Shown: positions 2,057 to 40,665 of the stretch, piece by piece
Layout of the letters: each line of letters begins with the position of its first letter
How positions within the stretch are numbered: the stretch's first letter is position 1
DNA from: Gibbula magus
Taxonomy: Eukaryota > Mollusca > Gastropoda > Trochida > Trochidae
Length of the DNA: 64,000 nt
Assembly (NCBI GenBank): GCA_936450465.1
Contig: OW388300.1
Span: 49,837,378-49,901,377 of the forward strand
Direction: 5' to 3'
Position numbers and translations under genes: made by a program
The notes under the pieces: model-generated
Seen by the model: only the letters and a program-made list of their open reading frames with translations
Database searches by the model: none
What the model was told of the DNA's origin: nothing

Positions 2057-2325
2057 AAAATACTTACCTAAAAATAATATTATGCGTTTTCTTCTCAGTT
2101 TTGATAAAATAAAAAATGGAACATTAAAAAACGATAATAAATATTAAAAAGATTTTCCAACAGGCACATTTGGATAACTTGTCATGATCAAGTTTTATAA
2201 GGGACAGATATCATAGTGTTGTCATTAAATAAGTTTCCACATGTGTATCCCTGTATTCAAAATCGGATTTAATCTGCACATTCTGCCAATTTTGATGATC
2301 ATGTTAAAATATGTGGGTTTTTTTG

Positions 2326-2805
2326 CAGATTTGGAGCCTGCCAAGTCCTACTGTCAGAGAGCTCTTCGATATCGTCGCTACTGACCAGGCCATGACATCA
2401 CCGTACCACCCCCAGACCAACGGCCTGACAGAGAGATTCAACCAGACCATAACCACCCAGCTGATGAAGATGGTCAACGACGACGCCAACGACTGGGACG
2501 AGTACCTTCAGCCCATTGCCTTCGCCTACAGGACCAACATTCAGGCCTCAACGAAGACCAAGCCCTTCCAGTTGCTGTACGGACAGAAGGCCCGCCTGCC
2601 CATCGACCTGCAAGCCTCCAGTACAGTTTCCACCTGGGAGTCGGATCTGGAGACGGTTGCTGCTAGGATGAAGGCGCTGTCCGACGCTGTCCCCGCCGCC
2701 AGAGATGCAGCCCGGACCAACATCGGGAAGGCCCAGGCGAGGTAGAAACAGCGTTACGACCTGAAGCACGCGTCGCCATTCTACCAGGGGAGTACTCATA
2801 GACTA
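2326..2805 (+). pseudogene. Ty3/Gypsy-type integrase C-terminal fragment
   Basis: The open frame contains SPYHPQTNGLTERFNQTI, the end of the retroviral-type integrase catalytic core, with the third acidic residue of the DDE triad (the E of TERFN), then WDEYLQPIAFAYRT and PFQLLYGQKARLP, all standard for Ty3/Gypsy (or Ginger-type) integrases. The first two catalytic aspartates and the whole RT/RNase H part are absent. A TAG at 2743 breaks the frame just before KQRYDLKHASPF, and similarity ends near 2790. The piece is much richer in G and C than its flanks. It opens right after tttttttgcag, which looks like a splice acceptor, so a captured exon is possible; an insertion remnant is more likely. 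Confidence 0.75.
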
Positions 2806-5409: not shown

Positions 5410-5886
5410 AATATAGAAGCCGCTTCCACACTCCTACGCCGCGAAACAGGAATAACCAACAAGACAACGCTCTTATCACAGACGAAATTTCTACCTACTA
5501 CGGACACACAACGAACGGTTCAAGTACTTCATGATAAGGATCATTGGGTGACGATTGCAGGGACGGAGACCAACATCATGTACTGTGATAGCTTGAAGAG
5601 GACAGTGAGCGGACACTTAAAGAAACAGATTCGGGAAATATTCGGACAACAAGGACCTATCACCGTTGAACTCCTGTCCTGCATCCTACAGGGAAACGGA
5701 TCCGATTGTGGAGTTTATGCAATAGCTAACGCTATAGATCTTGCTTGTGGGCGTTCGTCATCGGGCTGCACTTATGAAAAAACATTGATGAGAGACCATT
5801 TGATGAAGATGCTGGAACCAGAACGTGTGCTCCCGTTCCCCAAGAGAGCGACCAGCCGCCCCAAGTCGCGATTCATGAAATTGTAA
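5410..5886 (+). CDS. Ulp1-type (C48) cysteine protease C-terminal domain, 5' end missing
   Basis: The frame is open from the TAG at 5407 to the TAA at 5884, 158 codons. It shows the Ulp1/SENP catalytic layout: TLLSQT, then His in HDKDHWVTI, Asp in MYCDSL, Gln in ILQGNG and Cys in SDCGVYAIANA. Family members cleave SUMO or similar isopeptide bonds, but animal transposons also carry orphan versions. The N-terminal substrate-binding part is absent and the first in-frame ATG (about 5575, within the IMY segment) falls between the catalytic His and Asp, so this is an internal exon or a truncated copy. The basic C-terminus (PKRATSRPKSRF) is unusual. All four catalytic residues are present, so decay is recent or the exon is used. 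No flanking exon was identified. Confidence 0.7.
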   Translation, partial: NIEAASTLLRRETGITNKTTLLSQTKFLPTTDTQRTVQVLHDKDHWVTIAGTETNIMYCDSLKRTVSGHLKKQIREIFGQQGPITVELLSCILQGNGSDCGVYAIANAIDLACGRSSSGCTYEKTLMRDHLMKMLEPERVLPFPKRATSRPKSRFMKL

Positions 5887-16886: not shown

Positions 16887-19289
16887 ATGGCCGAGCAATT
16901 AGATATCACGAACAGACTAGACGATATACTTAAAAAGATAGAGGACTCTAAGGTTGATATAAATCGATCGGTTGATGCGAAATTACAGGGGCTTGTTGAT
17001 AGTTATTCCAAAACGTCAAAAGAGGTAACTCGTTTAAAGACTGAAAAAGATTTTACATGGAAGCACGAGGGTCACAGAATCCAATATGCTTTTAATGCCG
17101 ACTCAATTGACAATCTTAAGCAGATGAAATTTGCATTGGAGTACGGGAAGACAGAGTATTTAAATGAGCTTTTAGAGTCTTAGTTAGAGCGCATTGAGAA
17201 GAGAAATAAACTGATCAGGATTGCAGACACCTCAGATGGAGGCTGGCAGACCGTTCGCGAATACGCGGCTAATTCGCTTGCAGCAGATTCAGATGATGAG
17301 AAAAGGATTCAGCGAGCCGACGCAAGGGCCTGTAAAAAACTGGAGAAGAAAAAACCCAAGCCCTCCCGTTTTCACCCTTTTTCCAGGCTGACAGCGACTG
17401 TTACACAGTCTTCTTCTGGTATGCGCCCTTCTTCTCTGCCGTCGTCTACCCAGCAGCCCTTTCGAGTGCAGAGGCGAGGTACATGCAGTCCGCGTCCCAC
17501 TGGAGGCGAGATTGTCCCACACTCACCGGGCGTTACATACAGCGAGACGGCGGATCCAGCGAGGAACGAAAGTCCTTCTAGACAAGGTAATTGTGATTTT
17601 TCGTTCTTGACCGAGGATTTCTATGAATATGAACAAGGTTCGGCAGAAATCAGAGTGAGAGGGCGTTTACGACGGTGTTTGTCATTTTGGCGGGAAATCG
17701 GGTCTACTGATTTTGTTGTGGATGTGATAAAAGATGGGTACAAGATTCCTTTTCATTCAACCCCACCATCTATGTGTTTGAATAACAATAAATCAGCTAT
17801 CATGCATTCAAGTTTTGTGTGTGAGGCCATCACGGATCTATTACGTAAAGATCTTATTGTTGAATGTGCTGACCCTCCTTTTGTAGTCAATCCTTTATCC
17901 GTCTCCATTCAGTCATCGGGGAAGAAAAGATTGATCCTTGATCTTTCGGTTGTTAATAAGCATATTTACAAGCAATCTGTGAAATACGAAGATTGGAGAA
18001 CTACTCTTATGTATATAAATGACAATGATTGGCTGGTAAAGTTCGACATTCACTCTGCCTATCACCATTTAGAAGTGTTTTGTGAACATACATCCTTCCT
18101 GGGATTTTCATGGCAGTTTCCATCAGGACAAAAGTTTTTCAAATTCCTTGTTTTACCTTTTGGTTTGACATCTGCACCCTACATTTTTACTAAAGTTACA
18201 AGACAGTAAGTGAAATCATGGAGAATGCAAGGCATTCGATGTGTAACTTTTCTAGATGACGGGCTTTTGTCAGAATCTTCAGAAAATGAGTGTTTAGTTG
18301 TAGCTATGAAGGTTAAGAATGATTTGATCAAATCTGGATTTGTACCCAAAGATGAGAAATCGCTTTGGGTGCCATCGCAAACACTCGAGTGGTTAGGTTT
18401 TATTGTTGACACATCACGTTTAGTGATGTCAGTGCCTCACCGCAAGATTATCAAGGTCAAGGACGCTATCAGTTGCTTGCTAGCTGGAGGAAAGGTCAAG
18501 GTCAGAGTGCACGTTAGAAAACTAGCTTCGGTTGTAGGACAAATAATTTCAATGAAGCTCGTTCTTGGAAGTGTGAGTCAGTTAATGACAAGAGCTCTGT
18601 CTGTTGACATTTTGAAAGCTCAGAATTGGAACGATAAAGTTCTTCTGTCTCCAGAAAGTATTGAGCAACTCAGATTTTGGTTGTCGATGGTTACCAAATA
18701 CACTTAAAGAGCTTTGTGTGCAGATAGTTCCCCGACTAGGGTTGTGTATAGCGATGCAAGCAGCACAGGTTACGGGGGTTATTGTGTACAATTCGGAGGT
18801 AGAGAATCGCATGGCGTGTGGTCACAGGGCGAGATGAAAATGAGCTCAACATGGCGAGAGCTAAAAGCTGTAGCTATGATTTTGCAAAGTTTCGTGACCT
18901 TCCTTTCAGATCACATGGTCAAATGGTTTACTGATAACCAGAACGTTGTGGCAGTAGTTCAGAAGGGCAGCATGAAAGGTCATGTACAGGGTTTGGCTCT
19001 AGAAATATTTCACATATGCTTGCAGCATAACATTATGTTGGAGGTTGAGTGGATTCCCCGTGGGGAGAATGAGCAAGCAGATTACCTCAGCAGAATTGTT
19101 GATACAGATGATTGGGGAGTTTCTCATGATGTGTTTGAATTGGTTGACAAAAAGTGGGGACCCTACACTGTAGATCGCTTTGCTTCTTATTACAACAGGA
19201 AAGTGGAGCGATTTGATTCCCGTTACTGGAATCCAGGCTGTGAGTCTGTTGACACATTTACTGTCAACTGGAAAGGTGAGATGAACTAG
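16887..19289 (+). pseudogene. DIRS gag-like, reverse transcriptase and RNase H frame with three internal stops
   Basis: Starting at the ATG at 16887, one frame runs to the stop at 19287 and is interrupted only at 17181 (TAG), 18207 (TAA) and 18705 (TAA). The first part (MAEQLDITNRLDD, coiled-coil-like) is gag-like. The RT follows: KRLILDLSVVNKHI, the first catalytic Asp in VKFDIHSAYHH, LPFGLTSAPYIF, and FLDD as the YxDD-box variant near 18250. RNase H residues are seen in YSDASSTGYGG, the Glu of WRELKAV, TDNQNVV and EQADYLSR. Between gag and RT is a Ser/Pro/Arg-rich linker. Whether the first stop is a natural gag/pol boundary is open; the two inside pol are probably mutations. Confidence 0.85.
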
Positions 19290-19530
19290 GTTGTGCCCCC
19301 TGTCTACCTTGTAGCCAGAGTGTTAAATCATATGAGAATGTAAAGCTAAGGGCACTTTGGTCATACCAAGGTGGAATTCTGCCAGCTTCTGGCCTTTGTT
19401 GTGTCCGAATGATGCGTCTTCCCACATGTAAAGAGGGTTACGTACCCAGTCGTTGCGGTGGGAATATGTTTGGTGTTGTGGATCTGAAATTCGTTATGTT
19501 AGCTTTGTTTCTTGATTTTACTGAATGATT

Positions 19531-20538
19531 TAATCCAAGTATTCTTCCTTATGTTTCAGGTATCATTCAATCTGTATACCATGATGCTGTAAGTAAGCTC
19601 CCTGCGAGTTTAAGGGGCGAGATATCGTCTCTAGCAGATCTACTTGGTGAGGCCAGGGCGTCTTCCACAACTCGATCTTACGTTAATGGGTTTGAACGCT
19701 TCAAGGTTTGGTCGTTATCGCACGGAGTTCCGGTTGATCTCCCTATCCCCCCTCTAAACTGTGCTTTATACTTGCTTTCTGTTATTCAGAGTAGTTCAAC
19801 CATTTCGCCTGCAACTAATGCTTTCTATAGCATAAGATATGCTCACAATATCGTTGGTTTGCCAAGTCCGACTGATAATAGTCTGGTAAAAAATGTGTTG
19901 GAGGCAGGGCGGAGAAGATTAGCAAAGCCTACTCTGAAAAAAGAACCAATTACAGTTGACCAAATAAGAAATTTGTTTTTGGCTTCTGACAAGAATTGCT
20001 TAAAAGATAGCCGAATATTAACTATGGTTATTATCGCTTACTGTGGTTTTCTACGTTCTGACGAACTTTTGCATATTCGCCGGTCAGATATTGTTTTCTA
20101 TGAGCAGTATATGTCAATCTTTGTCGAAAAGTCAAAAACAGATGTATATCGTGATGGAGCATGGCTTGTTATTTCTTCAATTTCATCTGAACTGTGTCCT
20201 GTGAAACAACTAAAGTTGTATTTGCAATTGGCAGGGATAAGGGATGATTCTGACGAGTATGTGTTTAGATCCATTTCCAAGTTTGGGGAGGATTATAAAT
20301 GTCATACACAGCTTTACACGAGACATTCCTCGCAGCTTTGACGCCGTTTGTAAATAATGTTTCCAAATATGGGTTACATAGTTTGAGGTCAGGTGGGGCC
20401 ACAGCAGCAGCAAATAATGGAATTCCAGACAGGATGTTCAAGCGTCACGGGCGCTGGAAGAGCGATAGGGCGAAAGATGGCTATGTAAAAGACGATTTGA
20501 GTGCAAGGTTGCGTGTATCAAAATCTCTTGGTCTTTGA
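19531..20538 (+). pseudogene. DIRS tyrosine recombinase, frameshifted
   Basis: The enzyme joins the element's circular DNA to the target. The N-terminal SAM-like part includes TTRSYVNGFERFKVW. The catalytic domain shows the first Arg in GFLRSDELLHIR, then HSLRSGG (His-x-x-Arg), HGRW and the nucleophile Tyr in DGYVKDD. The frame shifts near 20298: the frame from the N-terminal side runs into a stop at 20339, while a second frame starting SYTALHETF carries on to the stop at 20536. All catalytic residues are otherwise present. A TGA at about 19525 precedes the open stretch. Confidence 0.85.
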
Positions 20539-30350: not shown

Positions 30351-30450
30351 ATAGAGATCGAGTTCCAACAATCGATAGTTAAGCTAATTTTACATTCAAT
30401 ATCCCTCGGACAGACGTAAATTTGGCTCAGCTCCCTAGGCTGAATGCATA

Positions 30451-30554
30451 AGAAATACTTGCCATTTAGATAGTGAAGAAATATAACATGGTTATATTTC
30501 ATCCCAAATATAACCATGTTATATTTCTTCACTATCTAAATGGCAAGTATTTCT
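30451..30554. repeat. Perfect palindrome, 49-bp arms and 6-base loop
   Basis: agaaatacttgccatttaga begins the left arm at 30451; its exact inverse complement ends at 30554. Arms 30451-30499 and 30506-30554 match at all 49 positions; the loop is catccc. A related atggttatatttggga word lies at 30194. The structure could extrude as a cruciform or fold in RNA; it may be one end of a foldback element. Confidence 0.92.
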
Positions 30555-32200
30555 ATTTCATTATACTCTTCGCGCCTCGATTAGATAAAAACAATGTCAC
30601 CTAACACTGTCAATATACAAGTTGCCAAACTGTTTTAATGTGTATGTGACGTACACCCATGACGTCATTCATAGGTGGGTTATTGTTATGCGCTCTTTGT
30701 TCTGTGATGTCATAGCATATTATAAAGACCCAATAATGATCACTGCATAGTGTTAAACCGATCGGGGATTCAAAACATTTCCAGCCTTTTATTTGTTAAA
30801 TCTATCACTTGGGCTATGAAGAAGGTTGCTTATGTTTATATATACTCGTGTACTAAAAACAACTGTGCCAAAATGTTCACCTAATTGTACATGTATCAAT
30901 GTGACATGATTTGTAATTAATTTTTTACTTATTCAAACACTATTTAGAGGCTGGTTATACAATTATTTAATCTCGACGATAACCTGGCTATATTAAAACA
31001 GATATGAGGAAGAGATCGATTGCTCCACATGCATACACTAAGCTAATTTGGAAGTAATGATTTGTTTTGGACAGTAACAAATATCTATTTTCATCAATCG
31101 CTACACGACCGTCCTTTATCCCCATTCACGGTTACTGCATCTCTCGCTGTATACAATCATGACCACTTGAAACATTCAGCTGGAGTGTATAATAGTAATA
31201 TTAAACTGAGCTGCGCCGCTCATGAAACATCCTTTGTCCGTCGCACTTGATGATATAAACAGAACATGTGTATTATGAATGTACCATTCCATCCCTGTGC
31301 TCATTCATTTGAAATACTACAACAGTAGAAGTAGTGATCCAACATTCTTCCAGGAGACACTCGTTTATCTTCCTGGCATATCTGAGAGATACTGTGTCTT
31401 TCCCCTCGACTTCATTTCTCCGTCCATTGGAATTGGGCACGTTATTGATGACTATGCCAATGTTGTGATGTACTGGAAGTGTTCTGAGAATACGGACATT
31501 TATTAGTTCCGTCCAAACCATACAAAGACCAGAACGTGAGAGTATTAAGCTTTGTCTTCTCTTGTCATCAGAAACAAACTATGGGTTCCTCGCGTACCAC
31601 GTTCTGACGACGACTCTCAGATGGTAATCCAAAATGGCTGACTAACGATGAAAAACACAGGTTTTAATGGACGTTCTAACTGTGAAAATAGTCATTGATT
31701 TGTATCAGTATTTCAACATTTTAAAATTTATAAAGGCACACGTATTAAATTAGACATCAATGTTTCACTGTCACAGTTCTCAATTTCCCATTTTACATTT
31801 TACGAAATTTCAATTTGCTATCAACTAAGAGAGGTGATTGTGATACAACAAACTTGCAAACGTGTAACCTGAACAATGCATGTTATTATGTGTCACGGAA
31901 GAATGATTCTACACCATCATGGGGACAGCCTAAGGAAAGACGGGCTGAATAAATAACTTGCATTGTGCAGCGTTCCAGTGATGAACACTATCTTGCTTTC
32001 TTATTCACCTTCATTTTAGAATATAATTTGTTCATTTAGTTTTCAAAGTAAACATTCCCTTTTTATTCCCATTTATCAACAGCTTATCTTATCCTTCTAC
32101 TACACTTTTGAATGCATTGTTAAACGATATGTTTGGGACATGACATTAAAGAAACAAAACACCCATAACCTGTACATCTCTATCCCTGATGAGGTGACCA
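30555..32200. other. Intergenic, nothing recognised
   Basis: Overlapping open frames on both strands at 31273-31521 look protein-like but match no family I know. The rest is AT-rich. Confidence 0.35.
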
Positions 32201-32202
32201 TT

Positions 32203-35200
32203 GTGTACTTAGTGTTCATTAGGTTTCCGTAGTGTACTAAGTATTCATTAGGTTTCCGTAGTGTACTTAGTGTTCATTGGATTTCCGTAGTGTACTTAGT
32301 GTTCATTGGTTTTCCGTGGTGTACTTAGTGTTCATTGGTTTTCCGTACTGTACTAAGTGTTCATTAGGTTTCCGTAGTGTACTTAGTGTCCATTGGTTGT
32401 CCGTACTGTACTAAGTGTTCATTAGGTTTCCGTGGTGTACTTAGTGTTCATTGGTTTTCCGTACTGTACTAAGTGTTCATTAGGTTTCCGTAGTGTACTT
32501 AATGTTCATTAGGTTTCCGTAGTGTACTTAGTGTTCATTGGTTGTCCGTACTGTACTTAGTATCCAGTAGGTTTCCGTAGTGTACTTAATGTTCATTAGG
32601 TTTCCGTAGTGTACTTAGTGTTCATTGGTTGTCCGTACTGTACTTAGTATCCAGTAGGTTTCCGTAGTGTACTTAATGTTCATTAGGTTTCCGTAGTGTA
32701 CTTAGTGTTCATTAGGTTTCCTTAGTGTTCATTGGTTGTCCGTACTGTACTTAGTATCCAGTAGGTTTCCGTAGTGTACTTAATGTTCATTAGGTTTCCG
32801 TAGTGTACTTAGTGTTCATTGGTTGTCCGTACTGTACTTAGTATCCAGTAGGTTTCCGTAGTGTACTTAATGTTCATTAGGTTTCCGTAGTGTACTTAGT
32901 GTTCATTAGGTTTCCTTAGTGTACTTAGTGTTCATTAGGTTTCCTTAGTGTTCATTGGTTGTCCGTACTGTACTTAGTATCCAGTAGGTTTCCGTAGTGT
33001 ACTTAATGTTCATTAGGTTTCCGTAGTGTACTTAATGTTCATTAGGTTTCCGTAGTGTACTTAGTGTTCATTAGGTTTCCTTAGTGTTCATTGGTTGTCC
33101 GTACTGTACTTAGTATCCAGTAGGTTTCCGTAGTGTACTTAATGTTCATTAGGTTTCCGTAGTGTACTTAGTGTTCATTGGTTGTCCGTACTGTACTTAG
33201 TATCCAGTAGGTTTCCGTAGTGTACTTAATGTTCATTAGGTTTCCGTAGTGTACTTAGTGTTCATTGGTTGTCCGTACTGTACTTAGTATCCAGTAGGTT
33301 TCCGTAGTGTACTTAATGTTCATTAGGTTTCCGTAGTGTATTTAGTGTTCATTGGTTGTCCGTACTGTACTTAGTGTTCATTAGGTTTCCGTAGTGTACT
33401 TAATGTTCATCAGGTTTCCGTAGTGTATTTAGTGTTCATTAGGTTTCCGTAGTGTACTTAGAGTTCATTAGGTTTCCGTAGTGTACTAAGTGTTCATCAG
33501 GTTTCCATAGTGTACTTAGTGATCATTAGGTTTCCGCAGTGTACTTAGTATTCATCAGTTTTCCGTAGTGTACTTGATATTCATAAGTTTCCGTAGTGTT
33601 TTTAGTATTCATTAGGTTTCCGCAGTGTTCATGATATTCATAAGTTTCCGTAGTGTTTTTAGTATTCATTTGGTTTCCGCAGTGTACTGCATGTTCATCA
33701 GGTTTCCGTAGAGTACTTAGTGTTCATCAGGTTTCCGTAGTGTACTAAGTGTTCATCAGGTTTCCGTAGTGTTCTTTGTGTTCATTATGTATCCGAAGTG
33801 TACAAAGTGTTCATTAGGTGTCCGTAGTGTACTTAGTGTTCATCAGGTTTCTGTAGTGTACTTAGTGTTCATCAGGTTTCTGTAGTGTACTTAGTGTTCA
33901 TCAGGTTTCCGTAGTGTACTTAGTGTTCATTTGGTTTCCGTAGTGTACTTAGTGTTCATCAGGCTTCCGTAGTGTACTTAGTGTTCATCAGGTTTCCATA
34001 GTGTACTTTGTGTTCATTAGGTTTCCGTAGTGATCTTAGTGTTTGTTACGTTTCCGTAGTGTACTAAGTATTCATCAGGCTTCCGTAGTGTACTTAGTGT
34101 TAATCAGGTTTCCATAGTGTACTTAGTGTTCATCAGGTTTCCGTAGTGTACTAAGTATTCATCAGGTTTCCGTAGTGTACTTAGTGTTCTTTCGGTTTAC
34201 GTAGTGTTCTTAGTGGTCATTAGGTTTCCGTAGTGTACTTAGTCTTCATTAGGTTCGGTAGTGTACTTAGTGTTCATTAGTTTTCCGTAGTGTACTTAGT
34301 GTTCATTAGTTTACCATAGTGTACTTAGTGTTCATCAGGTTTCGGTAGTGTACTTAGTGTTCATCAGGTTTCCGTAGTGTACTTAGTGTTCATTAGGTTT
34401 CCGTAGTGTACTTAGTGTTCATCAGATTTCCGTAGTGTACTTAGTGTTTATCAGGTTTCCGTAGTGTTTTTAGTATTCATTAGGTTTCCGTAGTGTACTT
34501 AGTGTTCATTAGGTGTCCGTAGTGTACTTAGTTTTCATTAGGTTTCCGTAGTGTACTTACTGTTCATCAGGTTTCCGTAGTGTACTTAGTGTTCATCAGG
34601 TTTCCGTAGTGTTTTTAGTATTCATTAGGTTTCCGTAGTGTACTTACTGTTCATCGGGTTTCCGTAGTGTACTTAATGTTCATTAGTTTACCATAGTGTA
34701 CTTAGTGTTCATCAGGTTTCGGTAGTGTACTTAGTGTTCATCAGGTTTCCGTAGTGTACTTAGTGTTCATTAGGTTTCCGTAGTGTACTTAGTGTTCATC
34801 AGATTTCCGTAGTGTACTTAGTGTTTATCAGGTTTCCGTAGTGTTTTTAGTATTCATTAGGTTTCCGTAGTGTACTTAGTGTTCATTAGGTGTCCGTAGT
34901 GTACTTAGTTTTCATTAGGTTTCCGTAGTGTACTTACTGTTCATCAGGTTTCCGTAGTGTACTTAGTGTTCATCAGGTTTCCGTAGTGTTTTTAGTATTC
35001 ATTAGGTTTCCGTAGTGTACTTACTGTTCATCGGGTTTCCGTAGTGTACTTAGTGATCATTATGTTTCCGCAGTGTACTTAGTATTCATCAGGTTACCGT
35101 AGTGTACTTGTTATTCATAAGTTTCCGTAGTGTTTTTAGTATTCATTAGGTTTCCGCAGTGTACTTGATATTCATATGTTTCCGTAGTGTTTTTAGTATT

Positions 35201-35463
35201 CATTAGGTTTCCGCAGTGTACTGAATGTTCATCAGGTTTTCGTAGAGTACTTAGTGCTCATCAGGTTTCCGTAGTGTACTTAGTGTTCATCAGGTTTCCG
35301 TAGTGTACTTAATATTCATTAGTTTCCGTAGTGTTTTTATTATTCATTAGGTTTCCGCAGTGTACTGAATGTTCATCAGGTTTCCGTAGTGTACTTAGTG
35401 TTAATCAGGTTTCCGTAGAGTACTTCGTGTTCATCAGGTTTCCGTAGTGTACTAGTGTTCATT
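32203..35463. repeat. 29-bp minisatellite, about 112 copies, with higher-order units
   Basis: The unit is gtgtacttagtgttcatta followed by ggtttccgta, 29 bases. The array is continuous for 3.26 kb. Between about 32.5 and 33.4 kb three variant units alternate as an 87-base trimer (markers gtccgtactgtac, tatccagtag, cttaatgttc). From 34304 a block of 13 units (377 bases) is followed by a near-identical copy from 34681. Variants with tttttagtattc appear only in the right half. No gene lies inside. Confidence 0.95.
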
Positions 35464-35465
35464 AA

Positions 35466-36640
35466 AAACAAGTATTGGAAATAACTCACAAGTTTTCCAT
35501 ACTGCTGTACAGATCTCAGGGTGTATGGTAGAACATGGAATGTACATAGACCTATATACTGGGGGATGGGAAGCAATAATCATTTATCCTCAGGACGCAA
35601 TGCATACATTCATGGCTAGTAAATGAACATAGAGCCCTTGATAAGTATATAATGAATGTTTAAATGGTCAATCATGCCAAATTGGTCACACTGAGATGCA
35701 AATGACCGCTACAAACATGCTCACTGACATGCAGTGTAAGTAACAACTATTTTAGGACAATAACATGTCAGATGTGTATAGATTAAATGAGAAATGGGTA
35801 TACCAAAATACCAACACATTTGTATCTCTGTAAATGTGATTAATTGACAGCTGTTTAATATTGACAAGGGTAAAATGATAATGTTAGTGATTTGAAAAAG
35901 GCAAATCATCATGTCTTTTGTTAGAGGACAGAGATTGTAGAATAACTATATACATAAGTCTTCACCCGAACATGGTTATAAGAACTGAGAGAGCGACACT
36001 GAAAACTCAGTGGTCATTTCCTTTATTACATAATGCGTTCTTATATTCAGAAATGTAATACAATGGGCCGATTAATGTAAATTCTTGAAATGCCCTACAC
36101 TGTATTTGCTGGAACGATGAATAACATTTTCTGAAATGTCATTTGATAATGGTTTTACATAATTTCAGACAGTAATACTAGAATTGAATTTATTCTAATC
36201 CTTCAATTAACATACATACACCGTTTGAGGTACATATCCGATATTAGATGTGTTTAATGAAATGTGTTTAATGAAACTTGAAAGATGTCATTATGGTTGA
36301 AAAAGTATCTGAAATATTGTAGTTAGGATATCCTACACGGCAATCAGTTTACGTTATGCAGCAATTGTTTTTTACATAAGAGAGAGAGACATTGTTAACT
36401 AGTCATAAAGGTCAAACACGCTCTTGTTACCATGGAAAGAAGTGACCCTGGTGTAAAATAAAGGTCATTTAACTACACGTAACTACATAAAATTGGAAGA
36501 CGTCCAGTATAGTGAGTTTGCCCTGCAGAAAATGTGATTGATTCATCTGTTTTCACGCTCAGAGATTATATGTGACAGTTGTTTTCAACAGTAAAATACA
36601 AAAAGAATATTAATCTTCACACATTTTATTTGCCCCGTTT
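35466..36640. other. Intergenic; downstream flank of the PC4/BIR cassette
   Basis: AT-rich without clear features. A TTTATT near 36626 reads AATAAA on the minus strand, about 70 bases past the end of the cassette, a plausible polyadenylation signal for its last ORF. Confidence 0.4.
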
Positions 36641-36645
36641 CAATG

Positions 36646-36683
36646 AGAAGACTTAAGGCTAGGAACACTCCCTAAGTCTTCTT
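36646..36683. repeat. Inverted repeat at the cassette's 3' end
   Basis: agaagactta (about 36645) and taagtcttct (about 36674) form a 10-bp stem around an 18-20-base loop, just downstream of the last minus-strand ORF. It may be a terminator-like hairpin or part of the element's end. Confidence 0.5.
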
Positions 36684-36801
36684 TACAACCACGAATGTCT
36701 ATTGAGCTACTTCTTCTTCTTCTTCTTCATCATCATCCTCATTACCGTCTTCATCAGACATCATGTCATCATCATCTTCGATCAAGTCTTCTACCCAAGA
36801 T

Positions 36802-37401
36802 TTATATTTGTACAGTTTGGAAAACACACTGTGATATATCATTAGTGTCTTGCGCCTCCTTCAATATTCCTTGTGTCATTGGCCCCCATTGCAAATGATA
36901 CAGATGGGTAAAAAATCTCGCATACATTTCTTTAAAAGCTCTCCATTTTAACTTCTTCAGTTTGTCATCTATCATTTCTTCAGACAGAACTCTTTTCAAA
37001 TAAAGTTGTCTCTTTTCATCCAAAAAGTCGTTATTGATCTCGCATGCACGTTTATACATTTGTATTATACCTTGCTTTTCGAGATTAGCTTGTTGATTTT
37101 GTTTCTGGATACCCTTGGTAAAAGTGTCAATGTCTTCAACACCTTCATTTTCATCATCCTTTTCCACTTCTGGGCATTGCTTATCGTGGAGATGTTTCTG
37201 TAAACAAATACTATTTAGAAACACCTGTCCACAATAACAACAGCTTTCTAGAGATTTTTTTGGGGGAAAGGCGTCATCAAACTTTCGTTTCGTTGGCTCA
37301 TTGGCAAATCCTGGAGGTGGAATATGTCTTGAAACACACTGGACAGGAGTACATTTTGACAGCTCAGTGTTTGATATCCAACTAAATAGAAGTTCCTTCA
37401 T
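36802..37401 (-). CDS. C2HC zinc-finger protein of the PC4/BIR cassette
   Basis: The 199-residue frame starts MKELLFSWISN. Residues 54-76 form a zinc-finger-like motif (CCYCGQVF, then H70 and C76: C-x2-C-x12-H-x5-C). The middle is charged and helical (QGIIQMYKRACEINNDF). The frame stops at 36802, but a different frame stays open directly after it, from about 36820 to a TAG at 36699, and encodes a run of Asp and Glu typical of an acidic tail, so a one-base shift near 36820 has probably cut the protein short. It follows the 37430-37804 ORF by 28 bases on the same strand. Function unknown; nucleic-acid binding is inference. Confidence 0.6.
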   Translation of the reverse strand: MKELLFSWISNTELSKCTPVQCVSRHIPPPGFANEPTKRKFDDAFPPKKSLESCCYCGQVFLNSICLQKHLHDKQCPEVEKDDENEGVEDIDTFTKGIQKQNQQANLEKQGIIQMYKRACEINNDFLDEKRQLYLKRVLSEEMIDDKLKKLKWRAFKEMYARFFTHLYHLQWGPMTQGILKEAQDTNDISQCVFQTVQI

Positions 37402-37429
37402 TGGGGCATTTTATATCACTTGTAAATGG

Positions 37430-37804
37430 TTAAAAACTTCTTTTCAATCGTTTCCTTGGACCTCCTCTCACTTTGATTTCCTTTAACTGTTTTAAATTTG
37501 CCTGTACTCTTTTTTCCTGAGCTTGGGCTTGCTCAACGACTTGTTGGGTTGGAAAGACAAAGGTAATTTTGGGTTGCTCACAATAAGGCATGGCCAGTGC
37601 TTGTTCTTTTCGCTTCCTTTCTTCCAAAATTTTAGACCATTCCGGATCGTAAAGCTCCAGTGTTCTGTCAACTGACATGATGCCGTGCCGTTCACATTTA
37701 CCCTGGACTTGCAACATATAATAGCAAGTCCATTTCTCGGTGTCTTGCACAAATAGTTTATACTGACTCATGTTGATGCGTCCTTCCTGAGTGTTCTGAA
37801 GCAA
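37430..37804 (-). CDS. Small basic protein of the PC4/BIR cassette, function unknown
   Basis: 124 residues from the ATG at 37804; an internal ATG twelve codons on (MSQYKLFVQ) may be the real start. The N-terminal half has paired cysteines and aromatic residues (KWTCYYMLQVQGKC); the C-terminal half is a long charged helix (EQAQAQEKRVQANLKQLKE) ending in a basic patch (GGPRKRLKRSF) that resembles a nuclear-localisation or nucleic-acid-binding tail. I recognise no family. Tight spacing to the next ORF and shared strand argue it belongs to the same element. Confidence 0.5.
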   Translation of the reverse strand: MLQNTQEGRINMSQYKLFVQDTEKWTCYYMLQVQGKCERHGIMSVDRTLELYDPEWSKILEERKRKEQALAMPYCEQPKITFVFPTQQVVEQAQAQEKRVQANLKQLKEIKVRGGPRKRLKRSF

Positions 37805-37843
37805 ATAAGTTAAGCATGATGTTGGTCTTTTATATAAGTTCTG

Positions 37844-38045
37844 TCAACCTATATTGAATTCAGTTCCCATATCAGTCTGATAAATACCAAGTATACGATA
37901 TTGTGTTTTTCTGTCAAGGCTTTTACCACCTTTGGTAGACTTGAGTGGATAGACCCAAAGATAGCGGGGAAATGGGTCTGGCATAACTACCCGCATGTTT
38001 TGGATCATAATAAATATCATGTAAGTAGTCTTCCCAAGGTGCCAT
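37844..38045 (-). pseudogene. Maverick/adintovirus-type integrase remnant
   Basis: The start at 38045 reads MAPWEDYLHDIYYDPKHAGS, matching the characteristic N-terminal segment of the integrases carried by Maverick/Polinton elements, adintoviruses and their genomic relatives. It stops at 37923, but another frame overlapping it reads YLWVYPLKSTKGG and then QTDMGTEF, blocks of the catalytic core including its second Asp. The roughly 100 residues normally between the N-terminus and these blocks are missing, and the C-terminal half including the catalytic Glu is absent. It is therefore an internally deleted, frameshifted relic; no reconstruction is offered. Confidence 0.65.
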
Positions 38046-38159
38046 GATGGGTAAATGGGCCTATCCTATTGATTTCACTCTATTTATATATCTACAAAAA
38101 GAGGACCAACACAAGGAAAATACATACAGTATGTTTATTACAATATCATGATATACCAA

Positions 38160-38582
38160 TCACACTGTTGAACCAAGGTAACATGTTTTGCCAGCAGTAT
38201 CACTCTTTTGGTTAGGTTGTCCTACCATATACAAATAGTCACAGTCTGGGCACCACCTCTTATGTTCAAGACAAGGGTCATCAGTAGAGGTCCAGTCCTT
38301 GAGACGAATACCACATTTAAAACAAATACACGAGTCACCACGGCTCAGTCCTGCATGAGCCAAATCTCTAGGATTTTGTTTCATGTGCAAAGGCCAGCCC
38401 TTGAAAGAATCAAGTCGCTTCTCAAATGAAGTGTAACCAGGCCTAGTTTGTAATAAACCACTGCAATCAGCAACAACAATCTCATATCCATAGGAATCCA
38501 TGCTATAAGAGAGATTGTCAAAACACGTCTTTACAGTTCGAAGTCTAGAACTAGACTGAACTTCACCAGTTGATATAGTCAC
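38160..38582 (-). CDS. BIR-domain protein (inhibitor-of-apoptosis type)
   Basis: 140 residues as listed from a first ATG-like position at 38582 (GTG in the DNA; the frame is open further upstream, so the true start is uncertain). Residues 47-120 form one BIR domain: FEKRLDSFKGWP, LAHAGLSRGD, then the zinc ligands Cys87, Cys90, His107 and Cys114 with the exact C-x2-C-x16-H-x6-C spacing and the DDP-x3-H signature. BIR proteins bind caspases or other apoptosis regulators. No RING finger follows and the frame ends 26 residues after the domain, unlike most cellular IAPs but like several viral ones. All ligands are intact. Confidence 0.82.
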   Translation of the reverse strand: MTISTGEVQSSSRLRTVKTCFDNLSYSMDSYGYEIVVADCSGLLQTRPGYTSFEKRLDSFKGWPLHMKQNPRDLAHAGLSRGDSCICFKCGIRLKDWTSTDDPCLEHKRWCPDCDYLYMVGQPNQKSDTAGKTCYLGSTV

Positions 38583-38642
38583 TAGGATTACATTTCGAAC
38601 ATTGCAAATGCTCCATTAGACCTTGATGAAAATGTTCATCAT

Positions 38643-39347
38643 CTACACCAAGATCATCATCGTCAACACTATTATCATTATTACCATCATCAGCAAATTG
38701 TGGTAAATCGGGGTACATTGGCGGCGATTCATCTGATGTATTGAAAGATGTTGCAAACTCATATTGTGGTCTTCCATCAGCTGTGTTCTTTCTTCTTTCT
38801 TCATTTTCTTTACCTCAGATGTAGTGTCTTCTCCACAATGGTTTCGTTTCAGATGAACATTTGAACACATGTCCAAGGATACAAAGGGTACAAAGTCTGG
38901 TATCACATCACAACAGTCTCTCAATTTCTTCCACTGATCTTGGGATAGTAGAATACCTTTTGAGGAAGGTACTAGTTTATCATGATTAAACTCCCAGTGT
39001 CTGAGATCCACACCATGATCTTCCACAGTGGCATAGACACTGGTTCCAACATGTGTATAGAAACTTGTCTTACCATACTCCTCTAAGAACTTGAACACTC
39101 CTGGTAGTTCTGACCAGTGTTTCAGGGTCAACATAATCCCTCGTTTGGTAGGATAGCTCTTGCCATTAGGGAAAGCATCATACTTCCGGATATGTATACT
39201 TAACATTCCATTCCAAGTCTGAGCAGTCACATACACATCTCCACCCAAGTCCAAATGACAACAAGGATCCTGCAGCTCTGTCAACTGCTTATCTGCCATA
39301 GTGCCTAGTCCATATCTCTCCATAGGGTCCTGGGGTAATTTTGCCAT
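38643..39347 (-). CDS. Protein with two tandem PC4-like (p15 coactivator) domains
   Basis: Start at 39347 (MAKLPQDPMERYG). Residues 31-83 (GGDVYVTAQTWNGMLSIHIR, then GIMLTLKHWSEL) match the four-strand plus helix pattern of the PC4 single-strand DNA-binding domain; residues 96-148 (TSVYATVEDHGVDLRHWEF, GILLSQDQWKKL) repeat it with a weaker core. PC4 domains bind single-stranded DNA and act in transcription or replication. The last 45 residues look out of frame: from about 38800 another frame gives a cleaner acidic, Asp-rich sequence that runs to a TGA near 38576. A frameshift there is likely. It is the first ORF of the cassette, 60 bases before the BIR frame. Confidence 0.75.
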   Translation of the reverse strand: MAKLPQDPMERYGLGTMADKQLTELQDPCCHLDLGGDVYVTAQTWNGMLSIHIRKYDAFPNGKSYPTKRGIMLTLKHWSELPGVFKFLEEYGKTSFYTHVGTSVYATVEDHGVDLRHWEFNHDKLVPSSKGILLSQDQWKKLRDCCDVIPDFVPFVSLDMCSNVHLKRNHCGEDTTSEVKKMKKEERTQLMEDHNMSLQHLSIHQMNRRQCTPIYHNLLMMVIMIIVLTMMILV

Positions 39348-39494
39348 TTTCTATCTTCGAGGTAAACAGCACTGAGCACCAATAGCGTCAAGAACATAAG
39401 AACACTTCTCAAGATCCAACTGAGAATGATTTTTTTCATGGAACAAAGGGGCCTTTTATCATACCTCAAGGTGAAAGAAAATAGGTCAACTAAA

Positions 39495-39612
39495 GGCGGG
39501 AAAAAATGAGGTCAAAGTCAGTTACCGTATTTCAGTATCTATAGGGAATAAATGAGGTCAACTGACCTAGAAAACTGTTAAAATGGGCGGGGAAAAATAG
39601 ATGAGGTAAACA
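39495..39612 (-). promoter_or_regulatory. Repeated AGGTCA/GC-box-like motifs upstream of the cassette
   Basis: Three copies of atgaggt(caa) and two of ggcggg(g)aaaaa are spaced through 115 bases. At 39555-39568 AGGTCA and TGACCT face each other with two bases between, an inverted-repeat nuclear-receptor layout. A TATA-like word (tgataaaagg on the minus strand, about 39455) lies between this cluster and the PC4 start. Promoter function is inference. Confidence 0.4.
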
Positions 39613-40494: not shown

Positions 40495-40665
40495 GCTTAT
40501 ATCCTAATGTATCAAAAGTGTTTGCCATGTTATATCCTTATGTATCACAAGTGTTTGCCATGTTATATCCTAATGTATCACAAGTGTTTGCCATGTTATA
40601 TCCTAATGTATCACAAGTGTTTGTCATGTTATAACCTAATGTATCACAAGTGTTTGCCACTAACA
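40495..40665. repeat. 33-bp minisatellite, five copies
   Basis: Unit: tgtatcacaagtgtttgcca plus tgttatatcctaa. Because 33 is a multiple of three it creates a spurious repetitive open frame. Confidence 0.92.

Follow-up and report, generated by a model that had tools for sequence, protein, structure and literature searches.

A probable internally deleted Maverick derivative with PC4 and BIR genes in the gastropod Gibbula magus

Maverick elements replicate by means of a protein-primed polymerase, and we know of no single-stranded DNA (ssDNA)-binding protein named for them so far. The adenovirus DNA-binding protein coats the ssDNA exposed during strand-displacement replication. Vertebrate Mavericks (Polintons) have been described as having intronless genes under purifying selection, terminal inverted repeats (TIRs), (AGT)2//(ACT)2 ends, 6-bp target site duplications (TSDs) and accessory genes in their flanks, with the integrase and the polymerase (PolB) on opposite strands, pointing inwards; apoptosis is not mentioned in the part of that text available to us (PMC8097293). 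Likewise, the available part of a text on adintoviruses, which combine PolB with a chromodomain integrase, mentions neither PC4 nor a BIR domain (PMC11071296). A PC4 homologue of bacteriophage T5 has been implicated in recombination-dependent replication, according to a title cited in PMC9600219. Bivalve inhibitor-of-apoptosis (IAP) genes are expanded, with intronless, single-exon BIR regions, and scattered over chromosomes, which has been partly ascribed to retroposition; the surroundings of hard-clam IAP genes are enriched in DNA transposons, not in LINEs, LTRs or SINEs, and neither Maverick nor Polinton appears in the available parts of these texts (PMC7831173 and PMC8917759). The available part of a further study assigns 1.7 to 1.9% of the hard-clam genome to Mavericks and confirms the IAP expansion, and does not link the two (PMC8905726). 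Literature searches returned nothing to the point on Mavericks or polintons with PC4 or BIR, adintoviruses with an inhibitor of apoptosis or PC4 domains together with viruses and integrases; for polintons and apoptosis, no title or abstract beginning was recognizably about a Maverick-borne IAP, and two other papers, in the parts available, have no bearing on the PC4-BIR-Maverick combination (PMC10294476 and PMC4028283), and a third contains none of the terms looked for (PMC11071308).

We analyzed a 64,000-nt stretch (the window) of the 1.47-Gb G. magus genome. Five pieces were found on its minus strand, with no introns seen: a protein carrying two PC4 domains, one with a BIR domain, the relic of an integrase, and two open reading frames (ORFs), one small and basic and the other with zinc fingers (Table 1). 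All of them are where a first-pass annotation of the sequence had put them, and each of the five was found again elsewhere in the genome. We consider it very probable that this copy is a decayed, internally deleted derivative of a Maverick/Polinton, a virus-like, protein-primed DNA element. Its likely cargo is a cell-death inhibitor and an ssDNA-binding protein, both predicted from their domains.

Table 1. Features of the element copy, in window positions
Feature	Position	Strand	Basis
Decayed element copy, footprint	36045..39466 (about)	-	blastn vs L014/L017/L018
PC4 gene: two PC4 domains and acidic C-terminal tail	38566..39347	-	Pfam PF02229, E 8e-19, whole ORF
PC4 domain 1	39105..39251	-	42.4 bits, curated cut-off 25
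PC4 domain 2 (stretch searched)	38868..39080	-	30.9 bits, cut-off 25
BIR-only inhibitor-of-apoptosis-type gene, open frame	38160..38501	-	PF00653, 56.9 bits vs cut-off 22.9
Integrase relic: gene start and part of catalytic core	37787..38042	-	tblastn with L037 integrase
Small basic ORF, 113 aa, 'MSQYKLF'	37430..37771	-	tblastn vs L014 ORF, 86% over 90 aa, E 2e-41
Zinc-finger/packaging-ATPase fusion, C-terminal part (C2HC fingers and following region)	36795..37401	-	tblastn
Acidic C-terminal tail of fusion gene, other frame (frame broken)	36699..36860	-	stop-to-stop frame

At the DNA level, the copy is homologous to ~7-kb family members of the same genome. With loci L014, L017 and L018, blastn aligned blocks at 36045-36389 (90% identity), 36379-37322 (79%), 37429-38300 (79%), 38565-38783 (90 to 92%) and 38887-39466 (96%), and one weak 72% block begins at 35,996; the resulting footprint differs slightly from the extent of 36,646 to 39,612 first assigned. 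The ends and terminal repeats are not preserved, and the exact end motifs that were tried are all absent from 34 to 44 kb. Reading frames are broken in two genes, near 38.8 kb in the PC4 gene and near the acidic tail in the zinc-finger gene, and the genes recognized in this copy include neither PolB nor a capsid gene. Other transposon remains are also present in the window.

Both PC4 domains exceed the Pfam cut-off, as expected from the two-domain reading of the first-pass annotation, and both keep the tryptophan aligned with that of human PC4; domain 1 additionally matched three PDB sequences of PC4 (E 0.0007 to 0.0012). Compared with its relatives, the gene carries an internal loss besides the frameshift: by tblastn, residues 1-185 align at 39347-38790 and residues 265-342 at 38793-38566. 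While the domain signature is that of the PC4/Sub1 ssDNA-binding proteins, the protein differs from those described in the available part of PMC9600219 in its two domains per chain, long acidic tail and Maverick context. The BIR ORF matched NAIP, DIAP1 and XIAP chains with phmmer (E down to 4e-24) and is 80% identical to the L002 copy. The correct zinc-ligand spacing attributed to it is borne out by a five-row alignment in which the ligands CxxC...H...C (C87, C90, H107 and C114) are invariant, as are the core residues W97, D101 and P103. Among the Pfam families reported at E values up to 1 (window ORF) or up to 0.1-0.5 (relatives), there was no RING domain.

The integrase pieces gave no Pfam match up to E 1. 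They were nevertheless recognized correctly as a Maverick-type relic, since two blocks align with the integrase of L037, a single 402-aa frame: residues 1-23 at 38042-37974 (E 8e-7) and residues 98-171 at 37990-37787 (E 1e-7). The 74 residues between the blocks are missing, so the gene is an internally deleted relic; the central part and the C-terminal half, including the chromodomain, are lost. In the L020 integrase, the chromodomain scored 35.0 bits (cut-off 25.1) and the rve domain came as two pieces of 16.9 and 20.9 bits, both below the cut-off of 32.6.

The small basic protein was confirmed by its match in L014. Its gene sits between the integrase and ATPase genes in relatives; no Pfam family exceeded the cut-off, and a single-sequence structure model was poor (mean pLDDT 54.7). 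The C2HC fingers were also confirmed, but not as a separate protein. The zinc-finger ORF matched residues 239-424 of the subfamily 1 query (463 residues, starting at the ATPase region; E 4e-49), which marks it as the C-terminal remainder of a larger protein with zinc fingers and an ATPase; with the subfamily 2 query, the match covered residues 262-437 (E 6e-52). The N-terminal finger and the ATPase domain are gone from the window gene, and a tail comparable to its acidic tail closes the intact 558- and 565-aa proteins of relatives. Thus, the first-pass statement that no ATPase is seen holds for the domain, but the remnant of the fusion implies that an ATPase gene was formerly present. The ATPase of L014 scored 23.2 bits with Adeno_IVa2 (cut-off 21); that of L018 scored 19.6 with Adeno_IVa2 and 20.7 with Pox_A32 (cut-off 22.8), both below cut-off. 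The ATPase domain had no match to PDB sequences up to E 0.1, and NCBIfam and PHROGs gave nothing useful.

The genes of the family are under purifying selection. The dN/dS ratio was 0.18-0.59 for BIR (ten pairs) and 0.09-0.43 for the basic ORF (ten pairs from five copies); between L014 and the second subfamily, it was 0.38-0.39 for PC4 (three copies) and 0.19 for the ATPase gene (one copy, dS saturated).

In the better-preserved relatives L020 and L037, the order is PC4, BIR, integrase with chromodomain, small ORFs and basic ORF, and L020 continues from there into the zinc-finger/packaging-ATPase fusion. Among 17 further loci, all chosen as PC4 matches, 14 keep the order PC4-basic ORF-ATPase gene, 13 have whole or partial BIR matches and 12 have integrase matches. 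Chance or nesting could have brought together three unrelated relics, namely the retrogene of a host IAP, a copy of host PC4 and a fragment of a Maverick integrase; this would sit well with the other transposon remains in the window and with the unequal divergence of the pieces from any one relative (72 to 96% identity). However, recurrence in the same order elsewhere makes chance untenable, and co-location in the genome is far above random; we rejected this explanation as having practically no probability.

Copies of the family have TIRs of ~120 to 200 bp. Five left ends (L009-L012 and L019) carry the sequence AGTAGTA and a single right end (L014) carries TACTACT, which the L012 and L013 stretches did not show. 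These AGTAGTA...TACTACT ends belong to one subfamily, and the end of the second differs (TGTTGTACAGGG). A 6-bp TSD is perfect in two of three copies (ATGGAT and ATTAAG), the third (ATATAC) having an irregularity of 1 to 2 bases at the ends; these TIR/TSD pairs come from three derivatives of ~7 to 8 kb, not from an insertion with PC4, BIR, integrase and PolB together. Inside TIR-bounded relatives the genes are single unbroken frames, and on this sequence evidence PC4 and BIR are unlikely to be exons of spliced host genes, an alternative that the first-pass annotation had raised against itself.

Smaller derivatives of ~7 kb exist and have multiplied: at least 32 ATPase matches, among them that at the locus of the query itself, tie at the top score, and the first 46 among the matches listed are 100% identical. 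L014 and L018 hold only three long ORFs. It could be argued from the many near-identical copies and the three-ORF content that these are a distinct, autonomous ~7-kb family rather than Maverick derivatives, with PC4, the basic protein and the zinc-finger/ATPase protein as its own machinery and BIR and integrase as passengers. We regard this as improbable: the ORF listings of L014 and L018 contain no integrase or other transposase, a ~600-bp gap in the 7-kb copies retains shortened BIR and integrase remnants, and the same order is also found with an intact-frame integrase, family integrases adjoining BIR and PolB. Of the two options named at first, a partial copy or a different, smaller element, the former stands, in the shape of an internal-deletion derivative; the latter was right in that ~7-kb derivatives exist, but probably not as an independent family.

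Genome-wide, an integrase lies 0.1 to 1.8 kb downstream on the same strand for at least 59 of 150 listed BIR matches (random mean, 0.01), and for at least 91 of the 150 scored BIR copies a Maverick gene (integrase or ATPase) follows directly downstream. For PC4, at least 37 of 150 listed domain matches have an integrase 0.6 to 1.75 kb downstream (35 integrases), and none of the matches listed has an integrase upstream, or on the other strand, within 3 kb. PolB (PF03175) occupies 74 hand-merged places, at least 42 of which have a convergent integrase match within 25 kb, 26 of these also with BIR. A convergent PolB lies within 25 kb of at least 12 of the 150 listed PC4 matches, a same-strand PolB near none; many loci have PolB 8 to 15 kb away on the other strand, and at least two loci combine PC4, BIR, integrase and PolB. 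The unlinked shares, counted among the matches listed, are upper bounds: 59/150 BIR matches with neither integrase nor ATPase downstream, 46/102 integrases used with no BIR upstream, 113/150 PC4 matches with no integrase downstream and 32/74 PolB places with no integrase. The homologues do, then, co-occur elsewhere, in the same order, the point on which the single-element reading had been made to depend. A decaying, Maverick-related, virus-like element with an anti-apoptosis gene, as first proposed, is thus supported by features of the relatives' sequences: TIRs, TSDs, chromodomain integrase, packaging-type ATPase and convergent PolB.

BIR genes occur in nimaviruses, malacoherpesviruses and ascovirus-like viruses, and an integrated fragment of such a large DNA virus would account for the BIR gene. 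The Maverick-type chromodomain integrase, IVa2/A32-type ATPase, 6-bp TSDs and opposite-strand PolB all argue against that origin, which we rejected as highly improbable; among the genes recognized in TIR-bounded copies, none was a core gene of herpes- or nimavirus type. The suggested search for same-order loci and viral relatives yielded PolB loci and terminal repeats, but in IMG/VR no relative was confirmed: the PC4 ORF, BIR ORF, integrase piece, integrase DNA motif, and BIR and PC4 alignments gave 15, 0, 1, 0, 600 and 16 pattern-matching stretches, respectively.

The Maverick family described here resembles vertebrate Mavericks in its intronless genes, TIRs, AGT-type ends, 6-bp TSDs, inward-facing integrase and PolB, purifying selection and accessory genes. 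In contrast to them, as far as the available text goes, this family has its ATPase joined to zinc fingers and encoded on the same strand as the integrase rather than in the PolB module, and its integrase is preceded by PC4 and by one or two BIR genes (PMC8097293). The pairing of PolB with a chromodomain integrase is shared with adintoviruses (PMC11071296, available part). The BIR gene is single exon and intronless like bivalve IAP genes, but, unlike in the retroposition account given in the available parts of those texts, many BIR genes here travel in Mavericks (PMC7831173 and PMC8917759).

The relatives have the PC4-BIR-integrase block at one end. Small ORFs come next and then, where a copy that was read extends far enough, the zinc-finger/ATPase gene; many loci have PolB on the opposite strand, pointing towards the block. 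In the model we propose, the PC4 protein would coat the ssDNA exposed by protein-primed strand-displacement replication and/or boost transcription of the element, while the BIR-only protein would bind pro-apoptotic or caspase partners and delay the death of the cell hosting replication. The integrase would insert the linear DNA, producing the 6-bp duplication, and the ATPase would package DNA in capsid-bearing elements. Internal-deletion derivatives of ~7 kb retain the TIRs together with the PC4, basic-ORF and ATPase genes but have lost the integrase and BIR core; they may spread via enzymes that other copies provide in trans. The window copy is presumably a derivative with a different set of deletions.

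Even distantly related Maverick lineages of the same genome have PC4 ahead of the integrase, a new point from gene order that suggests a replication role through ssDNA binding and makes PC4 a concrete candidate for the Maverick ssDNA-binding protein. Since so many of the scored BIR copies adjoin Maverick genes, the scattered intronless mollusc IAP genes published as retrogenes may be Maverick cargo, which would fit the DNA-transposon enrichment around hard-clam IAP genes (PMC7831173 and PMC8917759, available parts). It is conceivable, if somewhat doubtful, that aquatic-invertebrate Mavericks generally share a standard block for replication and immune evasion, PC4-BIR(-BIR)-integrase, with PC4 as their ssDNA-binding replication protein, and that intronless single-BIR mollusc IAPs are largely their cargo. 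Mavericks could then be a hidden source of many scattered shellfish cell-death-inhibitor genes, and the IAP counts cited for host stress adaptation would include virus genes. The identity of the Maverick ssDNA-binding protein and the origin of mollusc IAP expansions are both now directly testable.

The ORF following the integrase (L020:5127-5546) matched no family and has only weak PDB matches (best E 0.04); that it is a minor capsid protein is our guess. The adenain-type protease PF00770 had one match in the genome (60 candidates), whose distance from the closest family match listed was ~50 kb by eye, and divergent proteases could escape such a search. Many PolB frames are ~1.7 kaa long, leaving room for an extra domain.

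The five minus-strand pieces that the first-pass annotation had placed at 36.6 to 39.6 kb of the window are real, as judged from profile matches and alignment to relatives. Both domains of the two-domain PC4 protein exceed the Pfam cut-off; the BIR domain, singled out for its zinc-ligand spacing, scores 56.9 bits in Pfam, with all four zinc ligands conserved in the alignment. Two blocks of the proposed integrase relic, too short for a Pfam match, align to the integrase of a related locus, L037, relative to which the middle and the C-terminal half are missing. Taken alone, the small basic ORF and the zinc-finger ORF matched no Pfam family above cut-off.

The window's own assembly (1.47 Gb, 140 contigs) was searched for relatives. 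The PC4 ORF gave at least 151 matches, from 576 candidates of which 150 were scored. By eye, about 50 of those listed show a 340- to 345-aa open frame and 79 to 84% identity, and the remaining listed matches include more divergent groups (56 to 71%). About 10 kb was examined at each of 17 further loci (L020 to L036), all chosen from PC4 matches. The order PC4, basic ORF, zinc-finger/ATPase gene was found at 14 of the 17, the basic ORF not being found in the stretch examined at L023, L024, and L033. Among these PC4-chosen loci, 13 have a whole or partial BIR match and 12 an integrase; the BIR is nearly whole at L020, L031, L034 (a tandem pair), and L036. L020 begins with PC4, BIR, and an integrase broken into two frames (rve halves of 16.9 and 20.9 bits, both under the cut-off of 32.6) with its chromodomain (35.0 bits; cut-off, 25.1), after which come a small ORF of membrane type, another of ~145 aa, and short ones, with the basic ORF and then the zinc-finger/ATPase gene beyond them. 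L037 carries the end of PC4, the BIR, and a whole integrase with chromodomain in a single 402-aa frame, and then the small ORFs of L020 (one split over two frames) and the first part of the basic ORF. The ATPase of L014 passed the Adeno_IVa2 cut-off (23.2 versus 21), while that of L018 stayed under cut-off for both Adeno_IVa2 (19.6) and Pox_A32 (20.7). Family copies lie in inverted pairs at L026 and L029 and in tandem at L025, an arrangement that intermediates of replication or recombination might leave.

Linkage of these genes recurs across the genome; the linked counts for BIR, PC4, integrase, PolB, and ATPase are lower bounds. At least 59 of 150 BIR matches have an integrase 0.1 to 1.8 kb downstream on the same strand, whereas randomised integrase positions (200 trials) linked a mean of 0.01 BIR and a maximum of 1. 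A BIR lies upstream of at least 56 of the 102 integrases used and downstream of at least 38 of the 77 PC4 matches used, and there are at least 14 PC4-BIR-integrase triples. Counted on 150 Pfam PC4 domain matches, at least 37 have an integrase 0.6 to 1.75 kb downstream, before 35 integrases, 18 of which are only 37 to 39% identical to the integrase query; among the integrases listed, none lies within 3 kb upstream or on the opposite strand. With ATPase matches added (61 integrases used), a Maverick integrase or ATPase lies downstream of at least 91 of 150 BIR matches, and 59 have neither a listed integrase nor a listed ATPase there; at least 6 have an ATPase within 8 kb on the other strand. Of the 150 BIR matches, 40 are followed 1.5 to 3.6 kb downstream by the ATPase gene with no listed integrase between, pointing to a second derivative class that spreads the BIR. 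The BIR-integrase spacings, about 0.45 to 0.5 and 0.9 kb, suggest that further copies besides L034 also have two BIRs.

A better-preserved integrase, used as query, gave at least 151 matches, with 150 of its 645 candidates scored; open frames of 379 to 426 aa are common among the matches. PF03175 (PolB) gave 144 matches, merged by hand into 74 places, with many frames exceeding 1,700 aa. At least 42 of the 74 have an integrase within 25 kb, on the opposite strand in all 42 and mostly 8 to 10 kb off, and in at least 26 of those 42 a BIR lies beyond the integrase (a count drawing on just 40 of 150 BIR matches). A convergent PolB lies within 25 kb of at least 12 of 150 PC4 matches, and a same-strand PolB near none among those listed. 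PC4, BIR, integrase, and PolB are co-located at two loci or more (contigs C5 and C17), and individual genes with intact frames exist in the genome.

The abundant family copies are ~7 kb long, with inverted terminal repeats. In the first subfamily the left end, AGTAGTA, was seen five times (L009 to L012 and L019) and the right end, TACTACT, once (L014); TACTACT was sought and not found at L012 and L013. The AGTAGTA/TACTACT copy examined at both ends has a 6-bp duplication, ATTAAG. The second subfamily has the left end TGTTGTACAGGG; one copy has the duplication ATGGAT, and a further copy, slightly irregular at its ends, has ATATAC. Vertebrate Mavericks are described with (AGT)2//(ACT)2 ends and 6-bp duplications (PMC8097293, in the part consulted). 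The ~7-kb copies L014 and L018 keep PC4, the basic ORF, and the ATPase gene, with only shrunken BIR and integrase remnants between PC4 and the basic ORF, as also at several of L020 to L036. We read them as internal-deletion derivatives. That they amplified without the BIR core argues that their own spread does not require it, the BIR being for them supplied in trans or dispensable. The window copy, which retains the BIR, lacks the ATPase domain and the greater part of the integrase, and has no exact end motif left within 34 to 44 kb, is on this reading another internal-deletion derivative, its deletions unlike those of the ~7-kb copies.

Purifying selection acts on the element genes (Nei-Gojobori estimates). 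For PC4, dN/dS is 0.38 to 0.39 between L014 and three second-subfamily members and 0.05 to 1.51 when seven copies are compared in all 21 pairings, the lowest and the highest value each coming from a near-identical pair that differs at few sites. It is 0.19 (dS saturated) and 0.16 in two ATPase pairs, a third not being computable, and in ten pairs each 0.09 to 0.43 for the basic ORF and 0.18 to 0.59 for the BIR. PC4 dS of 0.009 to 0.024 in four near-identical pairs, together with at least 32 ATPase matches tied at the top score (the query's own locus among them), show that the family multiplied recently.

TIR-bounded copies, an integrase, a packaging-type ATPase, and, at many loci, a nearby PolB are in place. 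PolB would copy linear element DNA by strand displacement and so leave single strands bare. The PC4 domain binds single-stranded DNA according to PMC9600219, which cites a T5 phage homologue implicated in recombination-dependent replication; given exposed single strands, the element PC4 would be the best candidate for the single-stranded-DNA-binding protein of such replication. Alternatively, it could activate transcription. The BIR keeps its zinc core and, in alignment with NAIP and DIAP1-type domains, a tryptophan and an acidic position, which we take to line the peptide groove. With these features kept and no RING domain seen in the protein, it probably binds death-promoting partners instead of ubiquitinating them.

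By the features tested other than the protease (terminal repeats, 6-bp duplications, chromodomain integrase, PolB, and packaging-type ATPase), the element is a Maverick/Polinton. It differs from vertebrate Mavericks in that the zinc-finger/ATPase fusion sits on the integrase strand and PC4 and BIR precede the integrase. Anti-apoptotic genes are mentioned for adintoviruses in the portion of PMC11071296 seen, so the notion of such cargo has a precedent; a literature search combining PC4 with Maverick terms found no report. In the hard clam, 51 IAPs out of 159 have no introns, which was interpreted as retroposition, and the surroundings of IAPs are enriched in DNA transposons (PMC7831173, excerpted text). 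Neither the text available of that paper nor that of an oyster IAP paper (PMC8917759) matched Maverick or Polinton. We propose as a candidate reading that intronless IAPs of both bivalves may be Maverick cargo.

Further features of the window and of related loci
Location	Strand	Feature
window 2308-2742	+	retroelement-type integrase fragment (rve_3, 26.7 bits; cut-off, 26.5), separate from the element
window 5410-5883	+	Ulp1-type (C48) cysteine protease ORF (20.2; Pfam cut-off, 20.7), perhaps derived from a DNA transposon
window 17184-20338	+	long open frames, by eye resembling a tyrosine-recombinase retroelement
window 30443-30562		near-perfect palindrome (two arms of 57 nt, 95% complementary, around a 6-nt loop)
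window 32203-35464		tandem array, 29-bp unit, ~114 copies, adjoining the element relic
window 40497-40659		tandem array, 33-bp unit, ~5 copies
L034:2058-2853		tandem of two distinct BIR genes within one element copy
G000 C10:2130548-2130808		adenain-type protease (PF00770), sole match in the genome although Maverick-type PolB is common
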